Of a DNA stretch of 64,000 nt, positions 17,900 to 61,257 are shown piece by piece. Every line of letters begins with the position of its first letter. Position 1 is the first letter of the stretch. Location: the NCBI RefSeq assembly GCF_003952385.1, contig NZ_CP034444.1, positions 3,906,001 to 3,970,000 of the forward strand, in the 5' to 3' direction. The stretch comes from Mesorhizobium sp. M1D.F.Ca.ET.043.01.1.1. Its GTDB lineage: Bacteria > Pseudomonadota > Alphaproteobacteria > Rhizobiales > Rhizobiaceae. The notes beneath the pieces were generated by a model, which was given only the letters and a program-made list of their open reading frames with translations, ran no database searches and was not told the origin of the DNA. Both the position numbers and the translations under genes were made by a program.

Positions 17900-18673
17900 A
17901 TGGATTATCTGAAGAAATTCGACCTGTCCGGCAAGCGTGCAATTGTAACCGGAGGGGGGCGCGGTATCGGGCTTGAAATCGCTCACGCTCTCGGCCAAGC
18001 GGGCGCGTCAATTGTCATCGCGGACTTGGACGCGAATAGCGCTGCTGCCGCTGCGGCCAAACTCGCATCATGCGGTATCGCGGCAAGTCATCGCGGCATC
18101 GATGTGGCAAAGCCGGATGCGGTTACGGCGCTCGCCGACGAACTGAATGCCGAACAGCCGATCGACGTCCTTATTAACAATGCCGGTATAGCCCGGATAA
18201 CCGAGGCCCTCGACACTTCCGACGCGGACTGGCTGGCAACGATGCGGGTCAATTCGGATGCTGCATTTTGGTGTGCGAGGGCCTTTGGCCGGCACATGAT
18301 CGCCCGTCGCTGGGGCAACATCGTGAACATCGGATCCATGTGCGGCATGATAGTGACGCAGCCACAGAACAACACCGCCTATATTACCAGTAAGGGCGCC
18401 ATTCACATGATGACGAAGTCGCTGGCCTGTGCCTGGGCAAAGCATAATGTGCGAGTAAATGCGGTAGCTCCAGGATATGTTACAACAGAGATGACAATTT
18501 CCCCGAGGAATGAAAGCTCATTTCAGTATGATCGATGGTTAGAGCAGACTCCGCTGGGAAGAATGGGCGAGTCCCATGAAGTTGCATCCGCGGTGCTGTT
18601 TCTTGCCAGCCCTGCATCAAGCTATTGCACGGGAGCCATCCTGTCCGTTGATGGCGGCTATACATGTATGTGA
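17900..18673 (+). CDS. SDR-family oxidoreductase (polyol/3-oxoacyl reductase-like)
   Basis: The 257-residue classical SDR has TGGGRGIG, LINNAGIA, a Ser in VNIGSMCG and YITSK as the catalytic Tyr-Lys. It ends with SVDGGYTCM, very similar to the end of the SDR at 36373-37134 (DGGYTCW). Both follow an E1 alpha/beta pair, which suggests that the two cassettes are related. ATG 17900 is the only plausible start. It is separated from the E2 gene by ~390 bases that hold a dispersed repeat, so it may have its own promoter. Confidence 0.84.
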   Translation: MDYLKKFDLSGKRAIVTGGGRGIGLEIAHALGQAGASIVIADLDANSAAAAAAKLASCGIAASHRGIDVAKPDAVTALADELNAEQPIDVLINNAGIARITEALDTSDADWLATMRVNSDAAFWCARAFGRHMIARRWGNIVNIGSMCGMIVTQPQNNTAYITSKGAIHMMTKSLACAWAKHNVRVNAVAPGYVTTEMTISPRNESSFQYDRWLEQTPLGRMGESHEVASAVLFLASPASSYCTGAILSVDGGYTCM

Positions 18674-19491: not shown

Positions 19492-21519
19492 ATGGATGAC
19501 ATCCGCGTTGTTACCGACTTCCCCCGCAAAGTGCGCGAGATCGAGAATGTCTGGATCCCGATGCCGGACGGGGTAAAGCTCGCTGCCCGCCTCTGGTTGC
19601 CGGAGGACGCCGAGGCGGACCCGGTCCCCGCCATCCTCGAATACCTGCCCTATCGAAAGAGGGATGGGACTGTGGAGCGCGACCAACTCACCCATCCATA
19701 CTTCGCCGGGCATGGCTATGCAGGTGTGCGCGTGGACATGCGCGGTTCGGGTGATAGCGAAGGGGTCTGCAGGGGCGAATATCTCAAACAAGAGCAGGAC
19801 GACTGTCTTGCCGTGATCGAATGGTTGGCGAAGCAATTATGGTGCTCAGGCAGTGTCGGTATGATTGGCATCTCCTGGGGCGGGTTCAACAGCCTTCAGG
19901 TTGCTGCCCGCCGTCCGCCAGCCCTCAAGGCGATAATCTCGCTGTGTTCGACCGACGATCGATACCGGGATGAATGTCACTATTTCGGCGGCGCGCTTAT
20001 GTGCGAAAATTTGATGTGGGGGGCAGCGGCTTGGGCGATTGCCATGACCCCGCCCGATCCAGCTCTTGTGGGAGAACGCTGGCGTGAGATTTGGGAAGAG
20101 CGGCTCAACGGCAACGGGATCTGGCTGCAAGACTGGTTCGCGCACCAGCGTCGGGACGATTTCTACAAGCATGGTTCTATCTGCGAGGACTATTCCAACA
20201 TCGAGATTCCTGTCTACGCGGTGGGTGGCTGGGCGGACGCCTATCCCAACGCCATCTTGCGCATGCTCGAGAACCTGCCGGGACCTCGCAAAGGCCTGAT
20301 CGGCCCTTGGGCTCATAAGTATCCTCACATCGCCATGCCCGGGCCTCGCATCGGCTTTCTCCAGGAATGCTTGCGCTGGTGGGACCAGCATCTTAAAGCC
20401 ATCCACACCGGCGTTGAGGACGAGCCGATGTTGCGCGCGTGGATTCAGGATCCTTTGCCCCCCGCCGCCATCTACGACGAGCGGCCAGGCCGTTGGATCG
20501 CTGAGCCTTCCTGGCCGACGGCGAGCATTGTCGAAAGACGGCTGTCGCTCTCACCGGGACTTCTTGCCGAAGGAGATGGCAGTGATGCTGTTCTTACGAT
20601 CTGTTCACCGTCCACTTCGGGGCTATCATCCGGTGTTTGGTGCGCGTATGGCGCAGTGCCGGACCAGCCCATCGACCAGCGCATGGAAGCCGGAAACGCC
20701 TTGGTATTCGAAACCGAGCCTCTTCTGGAGGAGGTAGACCTTCTCGGCTTCCCCGAGCTTGAGGTAACCCTCTCTTCCGACAAAGCAGTGGCAATCCTAT
20801 CGGCCACGCTTTCGCTCGTGTTTAAGGACGGCTCGGCCACCCGTGTGAGCTATGGCATTCTGAATTTGACCCATCGCCACGACGACCTCGATTTGAAGCC
20901 AATGACGCCCGGTAAGGCTGAAGCAATACGCCTGAAGCTGCGGTCTTGCGGGCAACGCTTTGAAAAAGGGCAACGCATAAGGCTCGCCATCGCCACCAGC
21001 CATTGGCCTATTGTCTTTCCTAGTCCAGAGAGGGCAAGTCTATCAATACATTGTGCGGCCAGCAGGCTTATCTTGCCGGTGCGCAAAGCGAATGCCGTAG
21101 ACTCCAAACTTGTACCGTTTCTGAAGCCAGAGAGTGCTCGGCCGATGGCAACAGAGACTATTAAGCCTGGTAAACCTTTCTGTCGCGAGGTAATCACCAA
21201 CCAAGCCACGGGCGAGACAACTTTCCGGATGGCGAGCGACGCGGGGACCGTGGTGCATCCGCACACCGGAATGGTCATTTCGGCTAAGCACAGTGACACA
21301 CTTACCATGCATCCCGACGATCCGAGCTCGGCGCGCGGAACCTCCAACTGGGAAAAGTCGTACGCCCGCGGTAACTGGAACGTGCATATTGCGCTCTCGG
21401 CCACTGTCCGCGCGCTGCGCGACGTATGGCGCATCGAGACACATATCGTGGCGAAGGAAGGCGACAAGCTTTTACTTGAACGAGACGACGTCAAGGAGTT
21501 CGCTCGGGACTTAAACTGA
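19492..21519 (+). CDS. CocE/NonD-family hydrolase (X-Pro dipeptidyl-peptidase S15 type)
   Basis: The protein is 675 residues from ATG 19492, preceded by GAGGA at a good distance. The N-terminal alpha/beta hydrolase domain has the nucleophile motif GISWGG, an Asp in VGGWADAYPN and a His in GPWAHKYPH, which form the catalytic triad. A jelly-roll C-terminal domain of the S15/CocE type follows from about residue 330. An extra C-terminal section (about 560-675) contains FCREVITNQATGETTFRM and is longer than in minimal CocE enzymes. It stands directly upstream of an oligopeptide-type ABC importer, so it may cleave the imported peptide, amide or ester. The substrate is unknown. Confidence 0.85.
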   Translation: MDDIRVVTDFPRKVREIENVWIPMPDGVKLAARLWLPEDAEADPVPAILEYLPYRKRDGTVERDQLTHPYFAGHGYAGVRVDMRGSGDSEGVCRGEYLKQEQDDCLAVIEWLAKQLWCSGSVGMIGISWGGFNSLQVAARRPPALKAIISLCSTDDRYRDECHYFGGALMCENLMWGAAAWAIAMTPPDPALVGERWREIWEERLNGNGIWLQDWFAHQRRDDFYKHGSICEDYSNIEIPVYAVGGWADAYPNAILRMLENLPGPRKGLIGPWAHKYPHIAMPGPRIGFLQECLRWWDQHLKAIHTGVEDEPMLRAWIQDPLPPAAIYDERPGRWIAEPSWPTASIVERRLSLSPGLLAEGDGSDAVLTICSPSTSGLSSGVWCAYGAVPDQPIDQRMEAGNALVFETEPLLEEVDLLGFPELEVTLSSDKAVAILSATLSLVFKDGSATRVSYGILNLTHRHDDLDLKPMTPGKAEAIRLKLRSCGQRFEKGQRIRLAIATSHWPIVFPSPERASLSIHCAASRLILPVRKANAVDSKLVPFLKPESARPMATETIKPGKPFCREVITNQATGETTFRMASDAGTVVHPHTGMVISAKHSDTLTMHPDDPSSARGTSNWEKSYARGNWNVHIALSATVRALRDVWRIETHIVAKEGDKLLLERDDVKEFARDLN

Positions 21520-37450: not shown

Positions 37451-37725
37451 CCGTTGCCATGGGATCTCTGGTCCTTCACCAGGATCGGTGCGGCGGTAAC
37501 GGATCCCATCATCGCGCCTCTCATTCCCCAGCCGACTTGCGCGAGAAGAATAGGCCTATATTGCGGCAACCAAGACACTCTTTTTGGTGGTCATGACGTC
37601 ACATCCTGCAACAGATAAATACAACTACTTCACAAGAATTTACCAATCGCAAACCACGAGCAGTGGTATGTTGGACGAACTCACGCGCGGAAAAAAACCA
37701 GACAAGCTATTCGGAGTCGACAAAC

Positions 37726-38934
37726 ATGAAAAGAAGAGCGCTTATCCTGATCGAGGGTACAAGGAACAATGGTCCTCTATATGTCCAAGCGGCCCGAAGT
37801 CTTGGCCTGCACTCGATTACCCTGGCGGCTGATCCACTTAGGCACTACTATCATGCCGCAGAAGACAGTGAGGTAATCTGTGTGGACACATCCAATCTCG
37901 ATGCGCTGATTTGCGAGTGTGTTCGGCTGCATGCGACCTATGATATTGCTGGGATTACGAGCTCGGAGGAAGCTGCATATGCGACAGTCGGCATGCTCTG
38001 TCGACATTTCAATCTGCCAGGTCCGAACGCCGAATCGGTTGAACGATGCTGCGATAAATTCACTCAACGTCAGCTGCTTGGGCAAGCCGACATTCCAATT
38101 CCTGCCTACGCGTTGGCAACGAATGCGAGCGAGGTTGTAAGCTCTGCCGCTAAAATCGGCTTTCCTGTAATTGTAAAACCAGCCACGGACACCGGCGGCA
38201 GCGAGGGGGTCCGATTGTGCGGCAGTAGCGAGGAGCTAATCCAGCATACTGCTTATCTATCAAGCAGGTGGAGTACATGGCAGTCCCCAGCAAGAATATT
38301 AGTGGAACAATTTGTGAAAGGCTTTCATTATTGGGTGGAGATGATGGGAGATGACGTCATTGGAATCGCCTCTCTCGAATTCGGTCCCTCGCCGCATTTC
38401 GTATATAATAGATGCGCCTATCCGGCCTTGCTTACCAATGAAGAGGATGAGCGCATCGCCGATGTTTCACTGAGGTGTTTACAGGCTCTCGACCTTCACT
38501 GGGGTCCGACCAACGTTGAACTCAGGTGGACGGCACATGGGCCGGTCGTCATTGAAGTAAATCCGCGTATGTCGGGCTCGCCCGGTGTTGAGCTAGTTGA
38601 GCTAGCTTGCGGTATCAATCTTATCCGAGAGCACATTAAACTCGTGATCGGCGATGAGGGCGATTTGCGCGGAACCCGTTCAGAAACTGCTGCTGCGCAA
38701 TTCCTAGTTCCTGAACGGGACGGCGTTCTCGATTGGATCGATGGCGTCAGCCGGGCGGCTGCTGTACCTGGCGTCGCCAAAGTGAAGCTTTACCTTGAAC
38801 CAAACACCACGATCAAAAGGAGAGGCGATCACCGAGACTTAATCGGATATGTGACCGCCAGCTCGCCTGACATCGCTCGGACGGAGGCGATACTTCAGCG
38901 GGCCGTCGGCTTAATTGAGTGGTCGGTTACATAG
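37726..38934 (+). CDS. ATP-grasp ligase (carbamoyl-phosphate-synthase-like fold), copy 1
   Basis: The 402-residue protein starts at ATG 37726 behind GGAG with 9 bases spacing; an upstream ATG at 37663 lacks such a site. An N-terminal domain (1-110) binds the acceptor. The ATP-grasp core includes FPVIVKPATDTGGSEGVRL (phosphate and adenine Lys), LVEQFVKGFHYWVEM, and the metal-binding pair in VELRW and VVIEVNPRMSG. The C-terminus (about 320-400) has PGVAKVKLYLEP. Such stand-alone enzymes join a carboxylate to an amine via acyl phosphate, as in amino-acid ligases. It follows the second E1/SDR cassette. Three more family copies lie in the window, and the substrate is unknown. Confidence 0.86.
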   Translation: MKRRALILIEGTRNNGPLYVQAARSLGLHSITLAADPLRHYYHAAEDSEVICVDTSNLDALICECVRLHATYDIAGITSSEEAAYATVGMLCRHFNLPGPNAESVERCCDKFTQRQLLGQADIPIPAYALATNASEVVSSAAKIGFPVIVKPATDTGGSEGVRLCGSSEELIQHTAYLSSRWSTWQSPARILVEQFVKGFHYWVEMMGDDVIGIASLEFGPSPHFVYNRCAYPALLTNEEDERIADVSLRCLQALDLHWGPTNVELRWTAHGPVVIEVNPRMSGSPGVELVELACGINLIREHIKLVIGDEGDLRGTRSETAAAQFLVPERDGVLDWIDGVSRAAAVPGVAKVKLYLEPNTTIKRRGDHRDLIGYVTASSPDIARTEAILQRAVGLIEWSVT

Positions 38935-41633: not shown

Positions 41634-43445
41634 TCAGGCCAGGCCCATCGCTAGTTCCAACGCCTGCCGTTCGAAGAGGCGGCGGTAAATGCCACCATCG
41701 AGATCGATCAGCGCGGCATGATCGCCGTCCTCCATGATGCGGCCACGGTCGAAGACGAGCAGCCGATCGAGCGAGCGGACCGTCGACAGCCGGTGTGCGA
41801 TGACGAGTGTGGTTCGACCCACCATCAACCGATCCACCGCTTGTTGAATGAGCACCTCGGATTCCGAATCGAGGCTCGATGTGGCCTCGTCAAGAATAAG
41901 GATCGGCGCGTTCGCCAGGAAGGCGCGCGCGATCGCCACGCGCTGGCGCTCGCCGCCGGAGAGCTTCAAACCTCTTTCGCCGACCAATGTCCCATAGCCC
42001 TTCGGCAGGGGCGCGATGAAGTCATGCGCACTGGCCAGCCGTGCCGCTTGCTCGATTTCGGCCTGGCTCGCGCCAGGCCGGCCATAGGCGATGTTCTCGG
42101 CAAGCGACCTGTGAAACAGGATAGGCTCCTGCTGCACGATCGCGATCTGCGAACGGAGCGACTCTTGGGTCACCTCGGAGACGTCCTGGCCGTCTATCAG
42201 GATCCGGCCGCCGCTCAGGTCGTAGAGTCTCTGGATGAGCTTCACGAATGTTGACTTGCCGGAACCGGAAGGTCCAACCAACCCAACCCTTTCGCCAGCC
42301 TCAATCGACAGCGAACATTGGCTATAGATCGGCAGGGGATGGTTGGCGTAACGGAAGTGGACGTTCTCGAAATCGATGCGGCCCGTCGTGATCCGGATCG
42401 GCTTGGCCTCTGGACGATCCGCAACATCCAGCTGCTGATTGTGGATGGCCACCAGTTCTTCCATATCATTAACCGAGCGTTGCACGGTGCGGACATGCAT
42501 GCCGGCATCACGCAGATAGCCCTTCAGGACGATGAAGGACGTGAGAACATAGGCTATCTCGCCCGGCGTTGCCTGTCCATGCGACCACAGAAGCAGGGCA
42601 TATCCGACCACCGCCACCCTGAGCGCAACCAAAGTGACGCCTTGGGTTGAGTCGACGATCGTTCCGCGCACCCAACTCCGGCGCGCGCGGTGCCGCCATT
42701 TGGTCATGATATTTTCAAGCCGCTGGTCTTCGCGAACCTCGGCGCCGAAGCCTTTGACCACAGCGTTGCAACTGACCGCGTCCGCAAGCGCGCCGCCGAG
42801 CTTTGTGTCCCATTGGTTGGCAAGGCTCGCCGCCGGCGCGACATAGCTGAGCGACAGCGAAATCGAAAACGCTAGATAGATCAGAGAGCCGCAAGCAAAG
42901 ATCACGCCCATGACCGGCCAGTGCCAGCCGAGCAGCGCCGTCGAACCTACCAAGATGATAAAGGACGGGAACAGCGCGACCAATATTGTGCTGTTTAGAG
43001 GGTCGAGCGCCCACATGCCGCGCGTTATCTTGCGCACTGTCGAGCCGGCGAAGCTGTTCGCATGCCAGTCTGTCGAAAAGCGCTGGACATGATAGAACGC
43101 TTCGTTCGCGACATCGGACATCATCTTCAGCAAAAGATCGTTCAGGCCAATGACGGCGATGTGGCGCATGGCGATGGCAACGAGCGCAAGCGCAATCGGT
43201 ACAGAGAAGGCTGCAAGGGCCGAATGCCAGGCTGGTGCTGCCACAGCAGCGCCGCCTGCAACAGCATCGATGAGACGACCTGAATAGACCGGCATCAGCA
43301 CGTCAGCCAGCGTGGAGGCAAGCATCGCAGCCGTGATGATCGCGAGCCGCACCGGCTGCCGGCTCCAGTGGCGGACAGTGAAGGCGAGTACGTGGCGACC
43401 AGTGGCGCCGCGTCCATGGACGGGGAAACGTTTCATAGTTTCCAA
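41634..43445 (-). CDS. ABC exporter, fused membrane and ATPase domains (MsbA/ABCB type)
   Basis: The 603-residue half-transporter has an N-terminal six-helix membrane domain (about 20-330) and a C-terminal ATPase. The ATPase has Walker A GPSGSGKST, signature LSGGERQR, Walker B ILILDEATSSLD and an H-loop in VIAHRLST. It would work as a homodimer exporting a lipid, peptide or small molecule. It is divergent from the LuxR gene with ~670 bases between them, next to the radical SAM/aminotransferase/oxygenase locus, so it is a candidate exporter for that product. A decayed piece of a related ATPase (GRIGFESVNYRDGNHP) lies at 46784-46940. Confidence 0.88.
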   Translation of the reverse strand: METMKRFPVHGRGATGRHVLAFTVRHWSRQPVRLAIITAAMLASTLADVLMPVYSGRLIDAVAGGAAVAAPAWHSALAAFSVPIALALVAIAMRHIAVIGLNDLLLKMMSDVANEAFYHVQRFSTDWHANSFAGSTVRKITRGMWALDPLNSTILVALFPSFIILVGSTALLGWHWPVMGVIFACGSLIYLAFSISLSLSYVAPAASLANQWDTKLGGALADAVSCNAVVKGFGAEVREDQRLENIMTKWRHRARRSWVRGTIVDSTQGVTLVALRVAVVGYALLLWSHGQATPGEIAYVLTSFIVLKGYLRDAGMHVRTVQRSVNDMEELVAIHNQQLDVADRPEAKPIRITTGRIDFENVHFRYANHPLPIYSQCSLSIEAGERVGLVGPSGSGKSTFVKLIQRLYDLSGGRILIDGQDVSEVTQESLRSQIAIVQQEPILFHRSLAENIAYGRPGASQAEIEQAARLASAHDFIAPLPKGYGTLVGERGLKLSGGERQRVAIARAFLANAPILILDEATSSLDSESEVLIQQAVDRLMVGRTTLVIAHRLSTVRSLDRLLVFDRGRIMEDGDHAALIDLDGGIYRRLFERQALELAMGLA

Positions 43446-44112
43446 GCGGGCGCATCAACACGCTCGGTCCCAAAGACGTTAAAAGACAAAACTAGAATTT
43501 TCGACCTCCCCCATAACAGCATCAATTTTGGCGGGCAGCTCCTGCCGCCTCACGACGGTGATGTTCAAAAGTCGTGCCAACTGAGCGGGAACATCCGAAG
43601 GACAAATTCAGCAGGTTACCGAGCCTGGAGAAAGTCAGCCGCGATCCAGTCGAATACTTTTGCTACGGCTGCCCAGCTCGGGAGATTGGAAAAGAAGGTC
43701 GACGTATCGATTGAATTGTGAACTTGTTCTTTCTCCATCCGATAAGCGGAGTGAGTGCATCACGTTGCCTCGATCAAATAAGTACAGTTGCCATGCAGCT
43801 TTCTCAGGCCCGGGACTTAGGTGCTGATTTCAAAAGCGCGCCGCGAATACGTTCCTGCCCATATTCCGTCAATCGAATGCTCGACTGTCGGATTGTGCGC
43901 TCCCCGACACAGTGCTGTTCGGTTCGCCTCCTGGGTACCTCCCCCAGTCGATTGACGACCTGAAGAAGAAGCTTCGCTCGCAAGCTGGCACGACTCTTGA
44001 GGGTACTCCAGGTGGCGAAAGGAACTCCGGCTCGAGTCCCGTTGACTTCGGATGTTGCGAGGCTGGGCTGGAGCAAACTTTGCACCGATGAGAACGCAAT
44101 GAAGGAGGCATC
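43446..44112. other. Divergent intergenic region between exporter and LuxR gene
   Basis: About 670 bases. GAAGGAGG before ATG 44113 is a strong ribosome-binding site. A GG-N10-GC pattern at 44069-44084 (TGGAGCA-AACT-TTGCA) has a good -12 but a poor -24. No lux-box-like palindrome was found. Other frames have no family features. Confidence 0.4.
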
Positions 44113-44856
44113 ATGGAACTCCCGCAGGTGGAGTTAGACCTATTCCTCGAGATGACTGATGATATCGCTCAATCCGAACAGTTGTTCGAACGGATGTCTG
44201 CGTTTGCGCTGAAGTTCGATTGCCCGTGGATTGCCTATGGCCCGCTCGCATCAAAACAGGGGGTTTTCAAGCCGAACCGAGAGGGTTCTGTGGTGATGTG
44301 GAATTATCCTGCTGAATGGCAGGAGCGCTACTCGAGAATGGGCTATGCCAAAATAGACCCACTCATCAAGAAAGGTCGAAAGGAGGCGGGGCCCTTTCGA
44401 TGGAGCGAGGTGTATACCGATGAAAGCATAACTGAAGATGGACGCCGCGTCTTGGACGAAGCAGCAACATTCGGCTTGAGGTCAGGCGTTACCGTCCCAT
44501 TACATGGCCCTGGTGACAGCTTTAGGTTTGTGAGTTTTGCTCAATCCTCGGACTGCGAATTGCAGAATAGAACGATCACCTACCTGCAAATGGCCGCGCT
44601 GCGGTTTCATCGGATGGTTACGAAGTTCGACACTACGACTGCGTCGGAACGAGTACATAACCTGTCTCCGAGAGAAATACATTGCATTGATTGGGTGTCG
44701 AAAGGAAAATCGTCATGGGAAATAGGAACTATTTTAGGCAGATCACGAAATACGATAGATTTCCATTTAAAAAATGTAATGCGGAAGTTGGATGCGACCA
44801 GCAGAACGGTAGCTGTTGTAAAAGCTTTGAAACTTGGGATTATCGAACCGCCGTAG
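44113..44856 (+). CDS. LuxR-family regulator with autoinducer-binding domain
   Basis: The 247-residue protein has an N-terminal acyl-homoserine-lactone-binding domain (about 15-165) and a C-terminal LuxR helix-turn-helix (about 180-245: LSPREIHCIDWVSKGKS, then EIGTILGRSRNTIDFHL). The ligand-domain positions conserved in TraR/LuxR can be traced: Trp and Tyr in the WNYPAEWQERY segment, Asp-Pro in KIDPLI, Trp in FRWSEVY and Gly in FGLRSGVTVP. No luxI-type synthase is in the window, so it is an orphan or acts with a synthase elsewhere. Its position between an exporter and a biosynthesis locus suggests control of one or both. Confidence 0.9.
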   Translation: MELPQVELDLFLEMTDDIAQSEQLFERMSAFALKFDCPWIAYGPLASKQGVFKPNREGSVVMWNYPAEWQERYSRMGYAKIDPLIKKGRKEAGPFRWSEVYTDESITEDGRRVLDEAATFGLRSGVTVPLHGPGDSFRFVSFAQSSDCELQNRTITYLQMAALRFHRMVTKFDTTTASERVHNLSPREIHCIDWVSKGKSSWEIGTILGRSRNTIDFHLKNVMRKLDATSRTVAVVKALKLGIIEPP

Positions 44857-44869
44857 GTGCGCAGCTAGT

Positions 44870-45060
44870 TCTCCGCCCGTAGTAGCGCGCGTGATAGCCG
44901 AGAGCTCCGGCGTGCGCTCGCTCTTCGAAGCCCCAGCGCCTCGTCCATCTCGGCCTCGAGCACCTCCTGCATCACCCACCTCGTTCGATCTATCCGGGTT
45001 TCAAAGCAGAATGTCTTTGACGGCAGCGCTGGCGGTCTTACTTTCCGTCTTGATCATGGC
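44870..45060 (-). pseudogene. IS256-family transposase N-terminal remnant
   Basis: Minus-strand frames give KTASAAVKDILL, then VMQEVLEAEMDEALG, then GASKSERTPE, the order found near the start of IS256-family transposases. Frameshifts and a stop separate the pieces. Only the first ~70 codons are left. It ends just before the NifA-type promoter region. Confidence 0.7.
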
Positions 45061-45181
45061 GGCGTTCCTTCCAGGGAATCGGTGACGTTGAGCACCACCC
45101 TGTCATGACCGCCCGCTCTCAGCGAATTTGCAGAACTCAGCACGCCATTCTGTCTTAAGCGACTGACGCATGAGTGATGTG

Positions 45182-45197
45182 TGTCCAAAATCTGACA
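45182..45197 (+). promoter_or_regulatory. NifA upstream activator site 1 (TGT-N10-ACA)
   Basis: TGT (45182-45184), ten bases, ACA (45195-45197). It overlaps a small palindrome TCTGAC-AGCC-GTCAGA (45191-45206). It lies 112 bases upstream of the -24 element and exactly 30 bases, about three helical turns, from the second site. Confidence 0.7.
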
Positions 45198-45211
45198 GCC
45201 GTCAGAAAACA

Positions 45212-45227
45212 TGTCGGGTTCAAAACA
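45212..45227 (+). promoter_or_regulatory. NifA upstream activator site 2 (TGT-N4-T-N5-ACA)
   Basis: TGT-CGGG-T-TCAAA-ACA matches the full NifA consensus including the central T. It lies 82 bases before the -24 element, within the usual range for NifA sites. Confidence 0.75.
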
Positions 45228-45293
45228 GCGGAGCGTCTTGGGCCTGTCGGGCTTTTCGAAGCCTATCACGCAGTAACTGCGCGCCAAGGGCAC

Positions 45294-45309
45294 TGGCACG
45301 GCCTTTGCT
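45294..45309 (+). promoter_or_regulatory. Sigma54 promoter, full -24/-12 consensus
   Basis: TGGCACG-GCCT-TTGCT matches the RpoN consensus TGGCACG-N4-TTGCW at every fixed position. Transcription would start near 45320 and read toward the radical SAM gene at 45700. Together with two TGT-N10-ACA sites upstream this is a complete NifA-type promoter. Confidence 0.85.
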
Positions 45310-45347
45310 GGTCGAGGTGCGGCAATATAGTGTGAGGGTTAAGCCGC

Positions 45348-45467
45348 ATGAGAACACGGAACTCGCTCGACGTAAGGGATGATCGACCTCATCCAGAAAG
45401 CTTCTCTCCGGCGGGTTCGAGGGTGCTGCGCGCGCATCTCGGCGACGGGCCAGCGATCGACGATTGA
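45348..45467 (+). CDS. Possible small peptide directly behind the NifA-type promoter
   Basis: ATG 45348 follows GAGGG at 45334-45338 (9-base spacing) and opens a 39-codon frame ending at TGA 45465-45467. It is the first translatable frame after the predicted transcription start (~45320). The peptide is charged and contains SFSPAGS and HLGDGPAIDD, with no Cys and no known family. An overlapping frame (45379-45597, 72 codons, seven Cys) is an alternative but has a poor ribosome-binding site. Either could be a leader, a peptide substrate of the radical SAM enzyme, or nothing. Confidence 0.25.
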   Translation: MRTRNSLDVRDDRPHPESFSPAGSRVLRAHLGDGPAIDD

Positions 45468-45699
45468 GGCTACATCTCCGGAGCGAGTGATGCCTCGAAA
45501 ATTGCAATGCTGTCTCTGGTCCGACGCGCTGGAAGTTTGTGAAGAGTCGGCCCGGCAAATCGGCGAACCGGTCGGCTTAGGCTGCGAAAAAGGGTAGATG
45601 GCCGCGTTGCCGCGGTGGATCAACAGGCGGTGTCAGAAAGCCAAAGGCACACGTACACTATCGTGGCGCTTCGCAGGAGGTAGATGGGAGTAATCACCA

Positions 45700-46707
45700 G
45701 TGATTTTACCGGAACTTCGCTCAGCAAACACAGCCGGCAGGGTTTTGGAGATAACGACGACCACGGGATGTGTCGTAGGATGTTCATATTGTCCCCAGGA
45801 CAAGTTCGCGGTCCGGCAAAGAAAAGTGTCTCATGCGAGTCATCTGGGTCTTGAAGATTTCAAGCGGTGTCTGGCCCGCGTACCGACTTCCGTCGACATT
45901 GGTTTTGCGGGATACTCCGAACCTTGGCTCAATCCGGACTGCACCGAAATGGTGGAGCACGCCTTCGCCAAAGGCCATGGCATCAGGATTTTTACGACGC
46001 TGGTGGGAATGAACGGGCAGGACCTGCAGCGATTGCAAGCCTTGCGCTTGGGCGTATTCGTGGTCCATGTTTTCGATGACGGCACCTACATGAACAGCCG
46101 CCTGGTCGGAGACAAGTATCGCGATCTGGTTCGTCAACTCGTCGACGCGGACATCCCCTTGATCCGATTCGTGGCCTTGGGCGAGCCCCACCCAGATATA
46201 GCCGACATTATTCCTACCGAAGCACTGATAAAAGCGCGGCCGGTGAGCAGTAGGGGTGGAAGCGTCGACCCTAAGATCGTTGCACCACGTCAGCCAGTGC
46301 TCGGAGCCCTAACCTGCGTGGACGAACGACAGTATCGGAATGTTCTTCTTCCAAACGGCGACGTCACCCTGTGCTCCATGGATTTTGAACGGAGTCACGT
46401 ATTGGGCAACCTTCTATATGAGGGTTACTCCGATCTGTTTGAAAAGCCAGTTTTTCGCGAAATCGTCGACCGCATGAATGGAGCGGATGGTTTTCTGCTT
46501 TGCAGAATGTGTGAATTCGCCGATCCAAACGACCGGACCTGGGCGGATGCCGGCCGAGAGGGCGTGCCTGGCAATGCGGATGGCCCCACGACAAATGCAC
46601 CTGCTCGCGACGCCATCGTGTTTTCGCGTGAGGCGCGGCAGTGGGCCTCGACCACATCGAAAGGGGTCTTCGGCTTCCAACCGAGCTTGTCGGCCTGCCT
46701 GCCTTGA
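45700..46707 (+). CDS. Radical SAM/SPASM-type enzyme
   Basis: The 335-residue protein starts at GTG 45700, preceded by GGGAG with 9 bases spacing (an AGGAGG lies slightly further up). The iron-sulfur/SAM motif is CVVGCSYC (CxxxCxxC) near residue 24. A GFAGYSEPWL segment corresponds to the GGE region. A C-terminal Cys cluster (LTCVDERQYRN, then VTLCSMDFE, then LLCRMCEFA) fits an auxiliary cluster of the SPASM type. The last ~50 residues are low in features and may be read-through into decayed DNA. It lies ~390 bases downstream of the NifA/sigma54 promoter. Possible roles are peptide or small-molecule modification. Confidence 0.85.
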   Translation: MILPELRSANTAGRVLEITTTTGCVVGCSYCPQDKFAVRQRKVSHASHLGLEDFKRCLARVPTSVDIGFAGYSEPWLNPDCTEMVEHAFAKGHGIRIFTTLVGMNGQDLQRLQALRLGVFVVHVFDDGTYMNSRLVGDKYRDLVRQLVDADIPLIRFVALGEPHPDIADIIPTEALIKARPVSSRGGSVDPKIVAPRQPVLGALTCVDERQYRNVLLPNGDVTLCSMDFERSHVLGNLLYEGYSDLFEKPVFREIVDRMNGADGFLLCRMCEFADPNDRTWADAGREGVPGNADGPTTNAPARDAIVFSREARQWASTTSKGVFGFQPSLSACLP

Positions 46708-46783
46708 GGTAACGCCGATCACAGGTCAACCTCGGTCGGACGGAAACAGCGTTCGTCGATCCCGATCAGCGCTTGATTACTTA

Positions 46784-46940
46784 CTCACGGCCCACCTCGT
46801 CAACGCCTTCAGCCTCCCAGACGATCTCCTGTTCGACTCGCCTGAAGGCAGCAGCCCCAGCTGCGGCCGGGGATGGTTGCCGTCGCGGTAGTTGACGCTC
46901 TCGAAACCGATGCGGCCCTTCGCCAGCGCGTCTCCCGGTT
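46784..46940 (-). pseudogene. ABC exporter ATPase remnant
   Basis: On the minus strand GRIGFESVNYRDGNHPRP corresponds to GRIDFENVHFRYANHPLP of the exporter at 41634-43445, that is, the entry of its ATPase domain. The following frame has no Walker motif and soon ends. This looks like the debris of a second, related exporter gene between the radical SAM and aminotransferase genes. Confidence 0.5.
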
Positions 46941-46944
46941 GCTT

Positions 46945-47577
46945 CCGCCTGGCCTACGAACGGGCTTTCCGTCAAGGGGGTCCACGGCGGCCCCGCCCTT
47001 TTGATCCGGCGGCTCGGGCCAGTTATCGCGCAAGAGATCGGAATCCGCATTCTTCTCAAAGAGAGCGTGGCTTTCGCTGTGTCATCGGTCATCAAATAGT
47101 TTCTTGAATCAGGTTGGTGTCCGCAGCCCGAGGTTGAACGGCGAATATTGATGACCGCCGCGAAGCCGCTCGCTCGCTACGGCGCCATCGAGGAGCGCGC
47201 TCGCGAGCGGCTTCGCTACCGCCGAGCGACACAACCTCTGGCGACGCGACCCTGCTGATCTCCTTGGACCCATTCATTTGTGCGGAGGCGCTATGGGCAG
47301 CGATGGGTGGGTACGTCAACTACCTGATGCCATAGTATCGGTGCTTTCGCGGAAGGTTTAGAAGCCATCTTGTTGCAGCACATTCCCCGAAGACATCCGA
47401 ATGGAGGGCAACGCAACCAACAATATTCAATGAGGATCCCGGCACCACCAGACCAAACCCAGACCAAACAAAGCTGCCTCCGGCATTCTGCTTCAATGTT
47501 AAACGACGAACATATGCCGCAAACCACTAGCCATTAAACAGCTCTCTTCTTTGACGACTATGTGCAGAGGACTTAAT
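46945..47577. other. Intergenic region between the radical SAM and EctB-like genes
   Basis: About 630 bases, mostly featureless. It contains a strong inverted repeat at 47160-47216. No sigma54 or TGT-N10-ACA element was found before the aminotransferase gene, so it either depends on read-through from the upstream promoter or has its own unrecognised one. Confidence 0.35.
47160..47216. repeat. 14-bp perfect inverted repeat
   Basis: GCGAAGCCGCTCGC (47160-47173) and GCGAGCGGCTTCGC (47203-47216) form a GC-rich hairpin with a 29-base loop. There is no T-run. It could be the end of a lost mobile element or an mRNA structure in the leader of the EctB-like gene. Confidence 0.5.
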
Positions 47578-48834
47578 ATGGACACCGACGCTTTCACGGC
47601 TCATGAATCTAGCGTTCGTCGTTATTGCCGGGCGTTCCCCACCGTCTTTACGAAGGCCCTTGGGGCGACGATCTGGGACGAGACGGGTAAGCCCTTTATC
47701 GATTTCCTGGTGGGTTCCGGCGCACTCAACTACGGGCACAACAATCCGGATATTATGGCGCCGGCGATTGAATATCTCGTCGGTGAGAACATTCTTCTGT
47801 CGCTTGATATGCATACGGCGGCAAAGCGTGACTTCATTGAAGGGTTCGTCGATTGGATCCTGAAACCCAGAGGCCTTTCATACAAGATTCAGTTTCCTGG
47901 GCCGACCGGCACGAACGCCAACGAAGCGGCTCTGGCGCTGGCGCGAAAATACACCGGCCGCTCGAGCGTCATGGCCTTTACGAATGCGTTCCACGGCATG
48001 TCGCTCGGCTCTCTAGCGGTGTCGGGCTCGGCCTCAACCAGGGAACTGGGAGGCGTCGCTCGCCACGATGTGATCCGTGTTCCCTATGACGGCTATCCGA
48101 GCCAAGCTTTCGATTCCGCCAGTTACATCGACAGCGTTTTGAGCGACCCGGGGAGCGGCATAGAAAAGCCTGCCGCAATCATTCTGGAGACCATCCAGGC
48201 AGAGGGCGGCATGAACGCCGCATCCGCAGCGTGGCTCACGGAAATTCAGCGCATTTGCCGCACGCATGGCATTGTTTTTATCGTCGACGACATCCAGGCA
48301 GGTGCGGGCCGAACTGGCGACTTCTTCTCATTCGAGTCTGCAAAAATCGAACCGGATATTGTTTGTCTTTCTAAGTCCCTTAGCGGTTCAGGTAGTCCGT
48401 TGTCCATCGTTCTGATTCGACCCGACTTGGATATATGGAAGCCCGGAGAACATAGCGGGACCTTCAGAGGAAACAATTTCGCCTTCGTGACGGCAGGAGC
48501 CATGTGCAAGATGTGGTCGGATAGGAAATTTACTGCAGGTGTCGAGCGGACAGCCGTCAGGCTGCAAACGCACCTCGATCGCCTGGTTGCGAAATTTCCA
48601 AGATACATCGAACAGAAGCGCGGCCGCGGTCTGATGGCCGGCCTGAAATGCCGTTCACCGGCAGTTGTCGGCCGCGTGCACGATGTCGCATTCGAAAATG
48701 GCCTTCTTATCGAATCCTCGGGGCCAAATCGCGACGTTATCAAAGTCCTCCCGCCGATAACCATCACCGATGCCGAACTCGATCGTGGCATCACCATCCT
48801 TGAACACGCACTACAGGAGCAAGACAATGCCTAG
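47578..48834 (+). CDS. EctB/DoeD-like class III aminotransferase (diaminobutyrate-2-oxoglutarate type)
   Basis: From ATG 47578 (behind AGAGGA) the protein is 418 residues. Its opening HESSVRRYCRAFP resembles the start of EctB (ESEVRSYCRSFP-like). PLP-enzyme motifs include FPGPTGTNANEAAL, the Asp in FIVDDIQAGAGRTG and the Schiff-base Lys in CLSKSLSGSG. EctB moves an amino group between glutamate and aspartate semialdehyde/2,4-diaminobutyrate. The other ectoine genes (ectA, ectC) are absent, so the product probably feeds a different pathway. It overlaps the following oxygenase gene by 8 bases, so the two are co-translated. Confidence 0.85.
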   Translation: MDTDAFTAHESSVRRYCRAFPTVFTKALGATIWDETGKPFIDFLVGSGALNYGHNNPDIMAPAIEYLVGENILLSLDMHTAAKRDFIEGFVDWILKPRGLSYKIQFPGPTGTNANEAALALARKYTGRSSVMAFTNAFHGMSLGSLAVSGSASTRELGGVARHDVIRVPYDGYPSQAFDSASYIDSVLSDPGSGIEKPAAIILETIQAEGGMNAASAAWLTEIQRICRTHGIVFIVDDIQAGAGRTGDFFSFESAKIEPDIVCLSKSLSGSGSPLSIVLIRPDLDIWKPGEHSGTFRGNNFAFVTAGAMCKMWSDRKFTAGVERTAVRLQTHLDRLVAKFPRYIEQKRGRGLMAGLKCRSPAVVGRVHDVAFENGLLIESSGPNRDVIKVLPPITITDAELDRGITILEHALQEQDNA

Positions 48835-49666
48835 TCAGATATCTCAAGTGCCAGCCATCTCGCCGGTTTCGATCAAAGAACGGACCGGGTCGATCAACAC
48901 GGCGGAGATCATCTCGGTCCTGAAAGGTGAGCTCACCGCTCTGCACATCAAGCAAGCTTTCAGCACCGAAGTAGCAGAGGAGATCACTACGAACTTTATT
49001 GGAAGCTCCGGTCTCAGAGAGCGTAAAGATGGTGTGCCCGGACAATATGTCGGTGCATCTCACTACAGAAAGGATGCAGCCACCTATTTCGCAGACGCCG
49101 AAAACGCGCGGCCGTACGTCGATGCCCTTTTTAAGAATTTGGTTGACCCGGTTCGAGCAGTATTCGGGGCGTTGAAGCGAGAGCTTCACAACCAGGGAAT
49201 CGAATTGCGGCTAGCGCGTTCCGAACACGGCCAGGCCAATGTTTGTCGCGGCCTCAGTTGGTCGGGCACAGGCACGTTTTCCTTGGATCCCCACGACGAC
49301 GTCGCTCAAGTCTTACGTGCTGGCGATGATTACGAGCTTTCTGCGGTGGCGCACAATACGGTCGCAGCGCTCAACCTCTATCCCAGCATGCCTGAGGAAG
49401 GCGGCAATCTGAAGCTCTGGAGCCACAAGCCGACGGTTGCGGACCGGATATCGCAAGGTGTGGAGACCACTGGATACCCCTATTCGGCAGCCTATCTGGA
49501 GGCCGTCCCTTGCCGCGAGTTCGAGCTCAAAACTGGGGATATCGCCCTAATCGATGGCGGCTTCGTTCACGGGGTTACCGGTCAATCAGGCAACGGAAAG
49601 CGTCGCGTGCTGCTGAATTGCTTTTTCGGATTTGCGCGGCCAGATCTTGTTCTCTGGTGGACCTGA
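48827..49666 (+). CDS. 2-oxoglutarate/Fe(II)-dependent oxygenase
   Basis: The 279-residue protein starts at ATG 48827, inside the end of the aminotransferase gene and behind CAGGAGC. A double-stranded beta-helix core is indicated by HxD in DPHDDVAQ, the distal His in DGGFVHGV, and an Arg in KRRVLLNCFFG for 2-oxoglutarate. These are the iron triad and co-substrate positions of the family. The N-terminal ~100 residues are specific to this subgroup. Coupling to an EctB-like aminotransferase suggests hydroxylation of an amino-acid-derived intermediate. The exact substrate is unknown. Confidence 0.8.
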   Translation: MPSQISQVPAISPVSIKERTGSINTAEIISVLKGELTALHIKQAFSTEVAEEITTNFIGSSGLRERKDGVPGQYVGASHYRKDAATYFADAENARPYVDALFKNLVDPVRAVFGALKRELHNQGIELRLARSEHGQANVCRGLSWSGTGTFSLDPHDDVAQVLRAGDDYELSAVAHNTVAALNLYPSMPEEGGNLKLWSHKPTVADRISQGVETTGYPYSAAYLEAVPCREFELKTGDIALIDGGFVHGVTGQSGNGKRRVLLNCFFGFARPDLVLWWT

Positions 49667-50190: not shown

Positions 50191-51462
50191 ATGTCTCCGG
50201 TGGAATTCACAGCGGGCGCTGCAAACGCCAGTCATTTCCGCAACACCGCTTCGGTCATTGATCGGACGCGAATGCATTTCGAACGGGCTCACCAACGTGG
50301 TCTCATGGGTGTTTACGGGCGGTCTTTAGAGGGGAGGGCGGTCATGATCACGGAGGGCGAGCGTCGAGGCGATACCATGGCCGACTACGTACGTTGTTGC
50401 TACCTCGGCTTGGACAATCATCCAGCTATCGTTGCAGGCGCGGTTGCCGCGATAAAGGAATACGGATCACTCCACTGGTCTTGTGCACGCACGCGCCTGA
50501 ATTTCGGACTCGTTGGTGAACTTGAGGGATTGCTTTCCCAACTCTTTGGGGCGCGGATTATTACTTACTCGACGGTTATGATTGCCAACATGGGCGCACT
50601 GCCAATCATCGCCTCCGGACATTTAACGGGAGGTCAAAGACCTGTCATGGTGTTCGACCGTCTGGCACATGCCTCGCTTGCCTTTCATAAGCCAGTTGTG
50701 GCCGAGGAGACCCAAGTCGAGACAATTCCTCACAATGACCTCGATGCTTTGGAGCAGCTTTGCCGCAAGCATCCAATCGTCGCTTACGTCTGCGATGGCG
50801 TCTATTCGATGGGCGGCTTCGCGCCGATCGAAGGGCTTCTTGAGTTGCAGGAAAAGTATGGCCTTTTTCTTTACATCGACGACGCACACGGAATTTCACT
50901 ATTTGGCGAAAGTGGCGAAGGTTTTGCGCGCTCGCAATTACCCAACGAGCTAGGTGAGCGCACGATCGTCGCGGCGTCCCTCGCCAAGGGCTTCGGCGCG
51001 TCGGGCGGCATGCTCATGCTGGGAACGGCATATCAAGAAGAGCTATTTCGTTGCTACTCCATTCCGCATGCCTTCTCGGCTTCGCCCAACGTTGCAGCTG
51101 TCGGTGCCGCTATGGCCTCGGCGAAAATCCACCGCACGAGCGAGCTCAGGGTTCGCCGAGATCAATTGATCGACCGCATCGCCCTGTTCGACGATCTCAT
51201 CAACACAGATCAGCGAGGCGCTCCTCTGCCAATTCGCATGATTAATGTGGGCGATGAATTTGCGGCTATTGATTTCGCAGCACGCCTATTCGATGATGGC
51301 TTTTACACTTCCGTCACGTTCTTTCCGACGGTCGCTCGGGGCCATGCGGGCATACGCATCTGTCTTACAGCGAGTCACGATCTGTCAGACTTGGCGCGGC
51401 TCTGTAATAAGATTCAGATCCACGGACAATCCGTGTTTACCGCAACAGAGGAGCCTCACTGA
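50191..51462 (+). CDS. Alpha-oxoamine synthase (BioF/KBL/CqsA fold)
   Basis: The 423-residue PLP enzyme has the family word pattern YLGLDNHP near residue 70, the Asp-His pair in YIDDAHGISLFG, and the Schiff-base Lys in SLAKGFGASGG. ATG 50191 follows GAAAGGAC. Such enzymes condense an amino acid with an acyl-CoA with loss of CO2; the fold includes 8-amino-7-oxononanoate synthase, 2-amino-3-ketobutyrate ligase and the CqsA/LqsA autoinducer synthases. It has a longer N-terminus (~50 residues) than BioF, and no other biotin genes are near. It ends the LuxR/radical SAM locus and may build its carbon skeleton. Confidence 0.85.
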   Translation: MSPVEFTAGAANASHFRNTASVIDRTRMHFERAHQRGLMGVYGRSLEGRAVMITEGERRGDTMADYVRCCYLGLDNHPAIVAGAVAAIKEYGSLHWSCARTRLNFGLVGELEGLLSQLFGARIITYSTVMIANMGALPIIASGHLTGGQRPVMVFDRLAHASLAFHKPVVAEETQVETIPHNDLDALEQLCRKHPIVAYVCDGVYSMGGFAPIEGLLELQEKYGLFLYIDDAHGISLFGESGEGFARSQLPNELGERTIVAASLAKGFGASGGMLMLGTAYQEELFRCYSIPHAFSASPNVAAVGAAMASAKIHRTSELRVRRDQLIDRIALFDDLINTDQRGAPLPIRMINVGDEFAAIDFAARLFDDGFYTSVTFFPTVARGHAGIRICLTASHDLSDLARLCNKIQIHGQSVFTATEEPH

Positions 51463-57310: not shown

Positions 57311-58997
57311 TCACGGAAATGGAGAGATCGACCAACTGATTAAGTTCACCGCACGCTGAATTATCGCCTCGGTCCGGACACGGTCGGGTGAAGCGGCTAT
57401 GACATGTCCCATGCGATCTCGATAGTCGCCTTTCCTCACGATAGGGGTATTGGGCTCGACACAAAATTGCACCTCTGCGACACCCGGTACAGCAGCAGCC
57501 TGACTGCCGCCATGGATCCAATCGACGATGCCATCACGGTCAGGAATTAGGACCCGGACGGCCACAATGTGTGAATGCCTTCTGCGCAAATCCCATTCGT
57601 GGCCGACGGCAAGCTTGATGTGTTCGGTGATAAGATCGACTCCATAAGCCAGCCGAACCAATTGAGAACCCGTCCCGCCCAAAAGTCGCGGATTCACTTC
57701 AATGACGACAGGGCCAAGCTTCGTCCACCGGAGTTCAACATTCGTGGGACCCCAGCCAAGGCCGAGAATTCGCAAGCAGCTCAGCGAAACGTCGGCGATT
57801 CGCTCGTGCTCGTCATCTGTCAGCGAGGCTGGCTGGGTGCCGCTATGAAAGACGAAATGCGGTGGGGGGCCGTAGTCAGCGGCGGCAATCGCAACGACCT
57901 CATTTCCCATTATCTGAGCGATATAATGCGGACCATTCGCGTATTCTTCAACAAGTATCCTCGGCGAAGATCGCCAAATGTGCTTCCCACCCAATAGGTA
58001 GGTGGTATGTTCGGCTAACTCATCGACGGTGCTGCATAATCGCACACCGATGCTGCCGCTGCCTATGGCTGGCTTCAGAATCACCGGCAGGCCGATCTCG
58101 GCGGCAGAGATTTCAACCTCCGCTGCATTCGCTGCTAAGCGATAAGCAGGTATTGGAATGCCGGCCTCCGCGAGGAGCTGACGTTGAGTAAATTTGTCGC
58201 AGCATTGTTCAATCGATGCGGGGTTCGGTCCCGGTAGATCGAAATGCAGGCAGAGCTTGCCAACTGTCGCGTAGATCGACTCGTCGTCGCCCGCAAAGCC
58301 AGTAATGCCAGCAATGTCATACGTCGCACGTAGCCGCGAACATTCGTGAATCAGCCATCGATTGTCTGTATCGCAATCCAGGTGAAGTCGAGGTCCTCGA
58401 GTCCGGCCCAGGCATACTCCGCACGCGGCGTCATTTCCCTTATCGACGAATTAAGCGGACCTTTCGCAGTATTCAACAAGTATTCGGGAAGTGCCGTGTG
58501 GGGGCCGTGGGCAGATTTCGCAGTCAGGCGGTCTGTACGCACCGTGCGCGGTATGCTGGCCAGAATCACGCGGCAGGCGGATCCGGCGCAGGTTACGCTG
58601 ATTGTGTGGGGGAAGCATATGAGCGGCCTCCGCGAGGAGCTGGATGCTGGATTCGTGTCAGCGCATCGAGATTGTCTGTATCGACACGGATTGTCTCGAC
58701 ACTTTCCGCCGCAAGGTAGTCATACCGAGCAGGATCAGCCGACAGGGTAATTGGATGGAAACCAAGACTCTGGGCCGCTTGGACGTATCGCAGACCAATT
58801 ACCCTATGACCTTCAACTAGGATAAGCGCTCTCGTTGCTCTTGGCATCCATTTCTCCATTGCGAGCTGCGGCGGTCCGGGCGTAAACAGGGTATTAGCCT
58901 CTTTCAGCGCGCCTGACCTCAGATTTAAGATGAACCTATAACCTTCAGGGACTTGCGCTCGCAAAGATTCTATAAATTTATTTGAAGCATTTGTTGC
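57311..58997 (-). pseudogene. ATP-grasp ligase, broken inverted copy
   Basis: This is the minus-strand partner of the intact gene at 60019-61257. The 5' part (58997 to ~58665) and the 3' part (~58375 to 57311) match it, but ~300 bases of other DNA separate them. A 15-base block (GATTGTCTGTATCG-like) is present on both sides of the insert. The core ATP-grasp words are present (LPVILKPAIGSGSIGVRL, RILVEEYANGP, VVIEVNPRLLGG, PGVAEVQFCVEP). From about residue 1 to the ATP-grasp loop the copies are nearly identical; after RILVEEYANGP they differ at about a third of the positions. Confidence 0.8.
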
Positions 58998-59700: not shown

Positions 59701-60018
59701 GTTGGTCGAGCCGATCCGTCGATCTGAGGTGCTGCCGAACGCCGTGTCACATGGGATTCACTTGTCGCTGAGCTACCTGCAAGTTCCTTTTTTTGGCCTT
59801 ATCCAAGTTCCTGCCGACTCCGTGCTTGTCTTCGCGGGTTCACCGTGGTTCCCGGTTACCAGCACGTTGCAACAAATGCTTCAAATAAATTTATAGAATC
59901 TTTGCGAGCGCAAGTCCCTGAAGGTTATAGGTTCATCTTAAATCTGAGGTCAGGCGCGCTGAAAGAGGCTAATACCCTGTTTACGCCCGGACCGCCGCAG
60001 CTCGCAATGGAGAAATGG

Positions 60019-61257
60019 ATGCCAAGAGCAACGAGAGCGCTTATCCTAGTTGAAGGTCATAGGGGAATTGGTCTGCGATACGTCCAAGCGGCCCAGAGTC
60101 TTGGTTACCATCCAATTACCCTGTCGGCTGATCCTGCTCGGTATGACTACCTTGCGGCGGAAAGTGTCGAGACAATCCGTGTCGATACAGACAATCTCGA
60201 TGCGCTGATTCACGAATGTTCGCGGCTACGTGCGACGTATGACATTGCTGGCATTACTGGCTTTGCGGGCGACGACGAGTCGATCTACGCGACAGTTGGC
60301 AAGCTCTGCCTGCATTTCGATCTACCGGGACCGAACCCCGCATCGATTGAACAATGCTGCGACAAATTTACTCAACGTCAGCTCCTCGCGGAGGCCGGCA
60401 TTCCAATACCTGCTTATCGCTTAGCAGCGAATGCAGCGGAGGTTGAAATCTCTGCCGCCGAGATCGGCCTGCCGGTGATTCTGAAGCCAGTCATAGGCAG
60501 CGGCAGCATCGGTGTGCGATTATGCAGCACCGTCGATGAGTTAGCCGAACATACCACCTACCTATTGGGTGGGAAGCATATTTGGCGATCTTCACCGAGG
60601 ATACTTGTTGAAGAATACGCGAATGGTCCAGACTACGGCGCTTACGCAATGGGAAATGAAATCGTTGGGATAGAGGCTGCTGTATATGGCGGCCAGCCGC
60701 ATTTCGTCTGTAGTGAAGGAACCTTCCCAGCCCCGCTCATTGATGACGAGTACAAACTTATGGCCGATGTTTCGCTGAGTTGCTTGCGATCTCTCGGCCT
60801 TGGCTGGGGGCCAACCAGTATCCAATTCCGATGGACGACACGTGGTCCAGTCGTTATTGAAGTCAACCCGCGGCTTGGTGGTGGTCCTCAACCGGTTCAT
60901 CTGGCTTACGGAGTCGACCTCGTCACCGAACACATCAAGCTTGTCATCGGTCGCGAATGTAACCTGCGCAAAAGCCATTCACATATCGCGGCCTGGCGCT
61001 CATTGTTTCCTGATCGCGATGGCATCCTCGATTGGATCCATGGCGGCAGTCAGGCTGCTGCTGTACCGGGTGTCGCCGAAGTCAAATTTTATGTTGAGCC
61101 CAAGACGCCGATCATCAGGAAGGGCGATTACCGAGACTCCATGGGGTACATTATCGCCGTTTCATCCAACCGTTCTCGGACAAAGTCGATACTCCAGCAA
61201 GCCATCGACCTAATCGACTGGTCGATCACACCATTTCCGACTGAACAGGAACAATAA
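60019..61257 (+). CDS. ATP-grasp ligase (carbamoyl-phosphate-synthase-like fold), copy 2
   Basis: The protein is 412 residues from ATG 60019, which has GGAG 6 bases upstream and aligns with the start of copy 1 (RALILVEGHRGIGLRYVQ vs RALILIEG). The frame is open upstream to 59845, and that stretch is also conserved in the inverted copy, so a longer form is possible. Core motifs are LPVILKPVIGSGSIGVRL, RILVEEYANGPDY and VVIEVNPRLGGG; the adjacent QFRW replaces the usual VELRW, so one presumed metal-ligand Glu differs. The C-terminal section has PGVAEVKFYVEPKTP. It probably forms an amide or peptide bond on a small carboxylate. It lies 490 bases upstream of an M24 hydrolase. Confidence 0.85.
   Translation: MPRATRALILVEGHRGIGLRYVQAAQSLGYHPITLSADPARYDYLAAESVETIRVDTDNLDALIHECSRLRATYDIAGITGFAGDDESIYATVGKLCLHFDLPGPNPASIEQCCDKFTQRQLLAEAGIPIPAYRLAANAAEVEISAAEIGLPVILKPVIGSGSIGVRLCSTVDELAEHTTYLLGGKHIWRSSPRILVEEYANGPDYGAYAMGNEIVGIEAAVYGGQPHFVCSEGTFPAPLIDDEYKLMADVSLSCLRSLGLGWGPTSIQFRWTTRGPVVIEVNPRLGGGPQPVHLAYGVDLVTEHIKLVIGRECNLRKSHSHIAAWRSLFPDRDGILDWIHGGSQAAAVPGVAEVKFYVEPKTPIIRKGDYRDSMGYIIAVSSNRSRTKSILQQAIDLIDWSITPFPTEQEQ

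Follow-up and report, generated by a model that had tools for sequence, protein, structure and literature searches.

A predicted NifA/sigma54 promoter of the TlpA family, joined to an acdS remnant upstream of a radical SAM gene in Mesorhizobium

What does a promoter with NifA/sigma54 architecture control when the gene behind it codes for a radical SAM enzyme, and how did it come to be there? Promoters of this kind are already known; what is new in this case is the gene under control and the way in which the promoter reached it. The locus lies in a stretch of 64,000 nucleotides, here called the window, to which positions refer unless the genome or another locus is named. The features needed for the argument are the following:

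45171 to 45361 (ends approximate), + strand: segment homologous to the promoters and leaders of TlpA genes.
45182 to 45197, + strand: UAS1, TGTCCAAAATCTGACA, TGT-N10-ACA, by its motif a putative NifA site, unchanged in most of the fused loci described below.
45212 to 45227, + strand: UAS2, TGTCGGGTTCAAAACA, TGT-N10-ACA with a central T, the exact match being lost in several loci, including L046 and L015.
45294 to 45309, + strand: -24/-12 element, TGGCACG-GCCT-TTGCT, with a predicted transcription start at about 45320.
45367 to 45477, + strand: acdS (ACC deaminase) remnant, identified by homology to the 3' end of the gene, frameshifted and with a stop.
45700 to 46707, + strand: radical SAM/SPASM gene (radSAM), GTG start, 335 amino acids, the native stop after codon 280 being replaced by TGG.

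The initial annotation had described two TGT-N10-ACA sites with a 30-bp spacing and a central T in the second, followed by an element which fits the RpoN consensus at every fixed position, and all of them are present as listed. The two UASs start exactly 30 bp apart, the central T is found in UAS2 only, and 66 bases lie between UAS2 and the -24/-12 element. Measured from start to start, the UASs precede this element by 82 and 112 bp, within the range of about 60–200 bp expected of a NifA/sigma54-dependent promoter. GG and GC of the element are correctly spaced, and its location places the predicted +1 near 45320.

A search of the same genome with positions 45040–45700 gives seven matches besides the query itself. 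Three of them are upstream of TlpA-like redoxin genes: L003/L084 (2221369), L088 (3888532) and L006/L089 (3895125). A fourth, L086 (3811086), precedes what is left of a TlpA gene, about 57 residues. L085 and L090 cover the sequence from 45367 onward and not the promoter part, L085 being the 3' end of a 350-amino acid ACC deaminase frame, and L087 matches 45040–45086 only. The homology to the TlpA family spans the UAS pair, the -24/-12 element and the leader, and extends to about 45361 at most matches. We have aligned 15 upstream regions of TlpA type with the window, 11 hand-picked from related loci and 4 from its own genome. Two exact UASs 28–29 bp apart are found in nine of them, the rest having one or a changed copy; eight have an exact -24/-12 element (TGGCACG-N4-TTGC) and seven a variant of it. 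Judged by this homology, the segment belongs to a family of predicted NifA/sigma54 promoters heading TlpA-like redoxin genes, with three such genes in this genome. No single TlpA promoter stands out as the donor, the forks in the tree being open.

L086 (3809586–3812716 in the genome) is a case of its own. Its TlpA-type promoter, with a remnant of the first 57 residues of TlpA, is upstream of another frame, which by eye resembles the small subunit of glutamate synthase. It is perhaps another gene brought under the TlpA promoter family.

Homology to acdS starts at 45367 and reaches the start of radSAM in the acdS-radSAM spacer of locus L037, with 78% identity. A small frame at 45379–45597, previously placed at the beginning of the transcript, begins in acdS sequence, followed by a frameshift and then a stop. 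As an out-of-frame reading of the acdS tail, it is ruled out as a gene or a peptide precursor. The radical SAM gene, also proposed to lie behind the promoter, is indeed the first real gene downstream.

We have compared 71 related radSAM loci, with one genome per species (L058 and L079 come from a single strain, on separate contigs). Many of these loci are near-copies, so the counts given here are not independent. The promoter is found ahead of radSAM in 37 of them, which we call fused loci, and homology to the acdS tail is present in all 37. Conservation of the motifs in front of orthologous radSAM genes gives a mixed picture. All 12 fixed bases of the -24/-12 element are kept in 19 fused loci, one (L033) is a single base off with TGGCAAG, and 17 have the damaged form TAGCTCG; the remaining 34 loci have other contexts, namely 8 with acdS followed by radSAM, 25 from other genera than Mesorhizobium, and L080, which is broken. 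The 8 loci (L037, L039, L045, L049, L050, L051, L075 and L076) have what appears to be the older arrangement, in which acdS, whole or broken, immediately precedes radSAM on the same strand. In five of them a TlpA gene starts 4.4–4.6 kb upstream in the same direction, with its -24/-12 element 4.6–4.75 kb upstream, and nifX-associated, fdxB and exopolysaccharide-repressor genes are located between TlpA and acdS. TlpA was not found within the available flanking DNA of the other three.

The junction with acdS is not the same in all fused loci. Relative to the acdS-to-radSAM reference, the acdS homology of 26 chickpea-type loci begins at position 904, with L037 nearest (78–82%), and that of 11 Lotus-type loci at 957–978, with L039 nearest (82–84%). 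The window locus belongs to the chickpea-type group, which has the longer acdS tail. We have built a radSAM tree from 29 sequences of our choice, 28 of the 71 loci plus the window. The chickpea-type group joins L037 with a support of 100/100, and the Lotus-type group is placed apart from it, beside L039 in an unresolved fork. A single join for all Mesorhizobium fusions is rejected, as a single fused clade on this tree gives a p-AU of 6e-5, in a test of 29 hand-chosen rows with a grouping suggested by results already seen. The two breakpoints and the AU rejection indicate that the fusion was made at least twice; either this, or there was a later exchange at the junction, which would itself be a second join. 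The promoter of acdS itself was also considered as a source and rejected: the -24/-12 scores upstream of 27 acdS genes and of the genome's own one are too low. The best is 10.0 (L039), with 8.5 in chickpea-type loci, versus 17.1–24.2 in the training set, and the R7A-type acdS 17-mer is found only in L040, L044 and L046 among six loci searched.

In the older order, the TlpA promoter would have been followed by the co-directional TlpA, nifX-associated gene, fdxB, exopolysaccharide repressor, acdS and radSAM. A rearrangement would then have fused the leader of this promoter directly with the acdS 3' end and left radSAM as the first intact gene. In bacteroids, UAS-bound NifA would contact the sigma54 polymerase at the -24/-12 element by looping, and the transcript would begin near 45320 and cross the dead acdS remnant before reaching radSAM. 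Our best explanation of the locus, which we consider probable, is a sigma54 promoter of TlpA type, activated by NifA, which is fused to the acdS tail and now drives radSAM. Its architecture, descent and conservation, read from the sequence like the junction and the gene itself, support a NifA/sigma54-type promoter at this site, which is likely to be active in bacteroids; NifA binding, NifA control, the start site and expression in nodules are what we infer from them for this promoter.

A matching promoter has been recorded in M. loti R7A. Sullivan et al. 2013 list 16 promoters for ICEMlSymR7A, among them 'Nr msi281' with CTGGCACGGCCTTTGCT (PMC3538637, Table 1), and the window has the same 17 bases. 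In the available part of that paper, the 2.3 kb behind 'Nr msi281' contain a noeL fragment but no complete annotated gene, the table entry being 'no annotated genes', and this promoter is outside the 15 tested ones (PMC3538637). Locus L046, from M. loti CJ3sym, has the 17-mers of Nr msi281 at 9652, msi280 at 11777, msi276 at 17934 and acdS at 20409, which is the R7A order. From the first of these there are 2315 bp to the start of a lysine-monooxygenase gene, and inside them, unlike in the listed description, we find an intact radSAM frame together with a GDP-mannose dehydratase (noeL) fragment. The same 17-mer is found in NZ_AP023255, where the radSAM gene is annotated. The window differs from this Lotus-type locus in its chickpea-type junction with the longer acdS tail.

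Expression of msi276 in R7A nodules falls from 553 to 14 units without nifA2, according to the available text (PMC3538637), and its 17-mer falls in the TlpA promoter family. The msi276-274 promoter has a homologous UAS pair, -24/-12 element and leader, but a TlpA remnant and fdxB genes follow it in place of radSAM, and its -24/-12 sequence is TGGCATGACGTTTGCT. The promoters labelled 'nifH frag' and 'nifQ frag' in Table 1 of the same paper (PMC3538637) are also comparable, as far as that table describes them, in that a NifA promoter reaches a new gene behind a fragment of an old one. In the window, however, the fragment does not represent the 5' part of the gene to which the promoter belonged; it comes from the 3' end of acdS.

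Behind radSAM, Lotus-type islands contain genes for a lysine N6-hydroxylase (msi280), a PhyH dioxygenase and a cupin-MetRS didomain protein (11967–17395 in L046). The same three genes are found in the window's genome near 2.22 Mb (L112, 7022–11786), ahead of a TlpA promoter. The didomain protein resembles hydrazine synthetases; a review counts the R7A protein Q8KGM6 among those identified, in its available part (PMC11705231), and msi280 is reported as NifA2-dependent in R7A in the accessible text of PMC3538637.

Conservation was measured at 24 fixed motif positions and 127 flanking positions, each compared to the window. Eight Lotus-type loci agree at 23–24 motif and 88–94 flanking positions. 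The corresponding values are 24 and 83 for the promoter L003 in the same genome, 24 and 81 for the TlpA promoter of L051, and 20 and 67 for L006. The near relative L013 (24 and 124) is uninformative. Motif positions are not favoured in the TAGCTCG group (22 and 118 in L028, 21 and 119 in L015). The radSAM frame is intact in 61 of the 71 loci, and its dN/dS is 0.13 between the window and L046, codons being compared without gaps; one of 17 pairs, L062–L063, reaches 0.78. The gene is under purifying selection.

Could the resemblance be due to chance? Single UAS-like sites are common: TGT-N10-ACA alone appears 10 times in the window versus 7.9 expected, which is not unusual. TGGCACG-N4-TTGC, on the other hand, is found without mismatch only at 45294–45309, with 0.026 occurrences expected per 64 kb (both strands, window dinucleotide make-up). 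The expectation per window is 4e-4 when at least one UAS is required 60–200 bp upstream and about 4e-6 when two are required, for a pattern which was fixed after being seen. The exact -24/-12 pattern appears 10 times in the 7.13-Mb genome, versus once for a reversed control pattern. The matrix score of the window element (20.8) is no evidence, because the training set of R7A promoters includes its own 17 bases. The combination of UASs and -24/-12 element is far beyond chance, and coincidence is contradicted by a homologous family with conservation in L003, L046 and L051; we regard it as practically negligible. A sigma54 promoter under another activator, such as an NtrC-like protein, with incidental UAS-like sites, also deserves consideration. 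The genome has one uninterrupted nifA (2259476), an interrupted one (3832855), three rpoN and two nifH genes, and contains six further non-curated activator-type matches, so more sigma54 activators may exist. Nevertheless, the UASs are conserved in the TlpA family and in M. loti, and family member msi276 depends on NifA2 in the part of PMC3538637 available, which makes another activator very improbable. As for gene content, the genome has two symbiosis gene sets, at about 2.21–2.26 Mb and 3.77–3.97 Mb.

A more serious alternative is a decaying relic, a promoter left from a deleted TlpA-acdS unit which may still fire, with radSAM unimportant here and both drifting. The acdS tail is dead, the native radSAM stop is lost in the window, and the -24 region is damaged in 17 of the 71 loci, with UAS2 also lost in 7 of these 17. 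L033, L036, L058 and L079 have the promoter with a broken or short radSAM, L033 and L036 being near relatives. The radSAM frame is intact in the loci with the damaged -24 region; these loci, the lost stop in the window and the four loci with a broken or short radSAM also weigh against our main explanation. Against a relic, however, the dN/dS of radSAM is low, motif positions have been kept while about 30% of the flanking bases changed, and the join appears to have been made twice, so we find a relic unlikely. The reach of the transcript is a separate matter, which involves the following features:

46655 to 46858, - strand: match to the noeL-like (GDP-mannose dehydratase) fragment of L046.
47551 to 48834, + strand: EctB-like aminotransferase, by position the orthologue of M. 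loti msi260, probably a separate transcript.
48827 to 49666, + strand: Fe/2OG oxygenase of WelO5/HilA type, its start overlapping the end of ectB.
50191 to 51462, + strand: alpha-oxoamine synthase (AOS) family protein, outside the conserved unit.

The initial annotation had the transcript continue into these three genes, and a single NifA-driven transcript for one biosynthetic pathway would agree with their common strand, with the lack of any + strand terminator found in 46500–47600, and with the presence of ectB and the oxygenase near radSAM in 30 of the 71 loci (the oxygenase accompanies ectB in all 30). In R7A, msi260 is also NifA2-dependent, with 1339 units in nodules and 5 without nifA2; the same source, in its available part, gives it no NifA promoter, and its authors judge direct activation by NifA highly unlikely (PMC3538637). 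Against a single transcript, radSAM and ectB are separated by 843 bp (46707–47551) with the noeL-like fragment on the opposite strand, the distance is variable (ectB is 3.2–4.1 kb off in four loci), AOS is found in 3 of the 71 loci, some of which end early, and in M. loti CJ3sym ectB is apart from this promoter. In CJ3sym the oxygenase again comes after the ectB orthologue (84%), and the msi262 17-mer is located on the opposite strand at a distance of 0.9 kb from the ectB start, which makes this orthologue very probably msi260. As msi260 is NifA2-dependent without a NifA promoter and apart from the promoter studied here, ectB does not need this promoter. We therefore do not maintain the long transcript, whose probability we consider quite low. 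A NifA promoter of ectB's own was also sought and rejected, with a best -24/-12 score of 9.8 within 600 bp.

Other parts of the window deserve mention. Two further NifA-type -24/-12 elements (43564–43580 (-), 43894–43909, 43985–44001 (+)), which share an A at -12 with M. loti nifH, are directed towards an MsbA-like ABC exporter (41634–43445, - strand) and a LuxR-type autoinducer-binding regulator (44113–44856, + strand). The element ahead of luxR is conserved together with its UAS in all 26 loci with luxR, and the ABC element in 26 of 26. NifA control of a quorum-sensing regulator, if true, would be noteworthy by itself. The window also codes for three proteins with ATP-grasp and L-amino-acid-ligase domains (37663–38934, 57311–58084 and 59845–61257), as well as M24 peptidases and a peptide-binding transporter protein.

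Turning to the enzyme, its SPASM profile score is 25.9 (cut-off 21.5) and its Radical_SAM score 23.3, below the cut-off of 29.5. Among 22 aligned sequences the CxxxCxxC cysteines C24, C28 and C31 are nearly invariant, and the C-terminal C206, C225, C268 and C271 are invariant. BtrN is a radical SAM dehydrogenase of butirosin biosynthesis with one auxiliary cluster. The predicted fold of the radSAM enzyme and its sequence profile are both nearest to BtrN, so that oxidation is our best guess for the reaction, but identity is 22% and the neighbours of radSAM are nif genes, which it adjoins in several rhizobial genera. We have found no paper on this gene in the literature on radical SAM with NifA, acdS and symbiosis islands, including the available parts of PMC4999443, PMC7643969, PMC10454721 and PMC11387232, nor in that on hydrazine with rhizobia. 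Of 21 Bradyrhizobium loci, 10 have a separate strong -24/-12 element in front of radSAM, although some scores (15.4, 16.2) are below the training range. A UAS-like repeat is present in five of these ten, just 25 bp before the site, so NifA, beyond mere sigma54, is less certain in this genus. No good -24/-12 element was found within 700 bp in the 8 acdS-radSAM loci and in 4 loci of Sinorhizobium, Ensifer and Cupriavidus. This is a point against our main explanation, and the Bradyrhizobium sites are a point in its favour. We may speculate that rhizobia have put the same BtrN-like enzyme under nitrogen-fixation control several times, counting two joins of a TlpA promoter to an acdS tail in Mesorhizobium and the unrelated Bradyrhizobium site, with an existing promoter for it in R7A. 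Bacteroids might then oxidise an undescribed substrate, conceivably a rhizopine-like cyclitol or amino sugar, a possible but tentative interpretation to which we would not commit ourselves.

In summary, a candidate gene can be supplied for a NifA promoter of the model Lotus symbiont behind which no gene had been listed as annotated. It is therefore a named candidate member of the symbiotic NifA regulon, with orthologues in several rhizobial genera. The locus would also illustrate how control may be kept or remade while symbiosis islands lose genes: the promoter and a dead gene tail stay, and the next gene comes under it.
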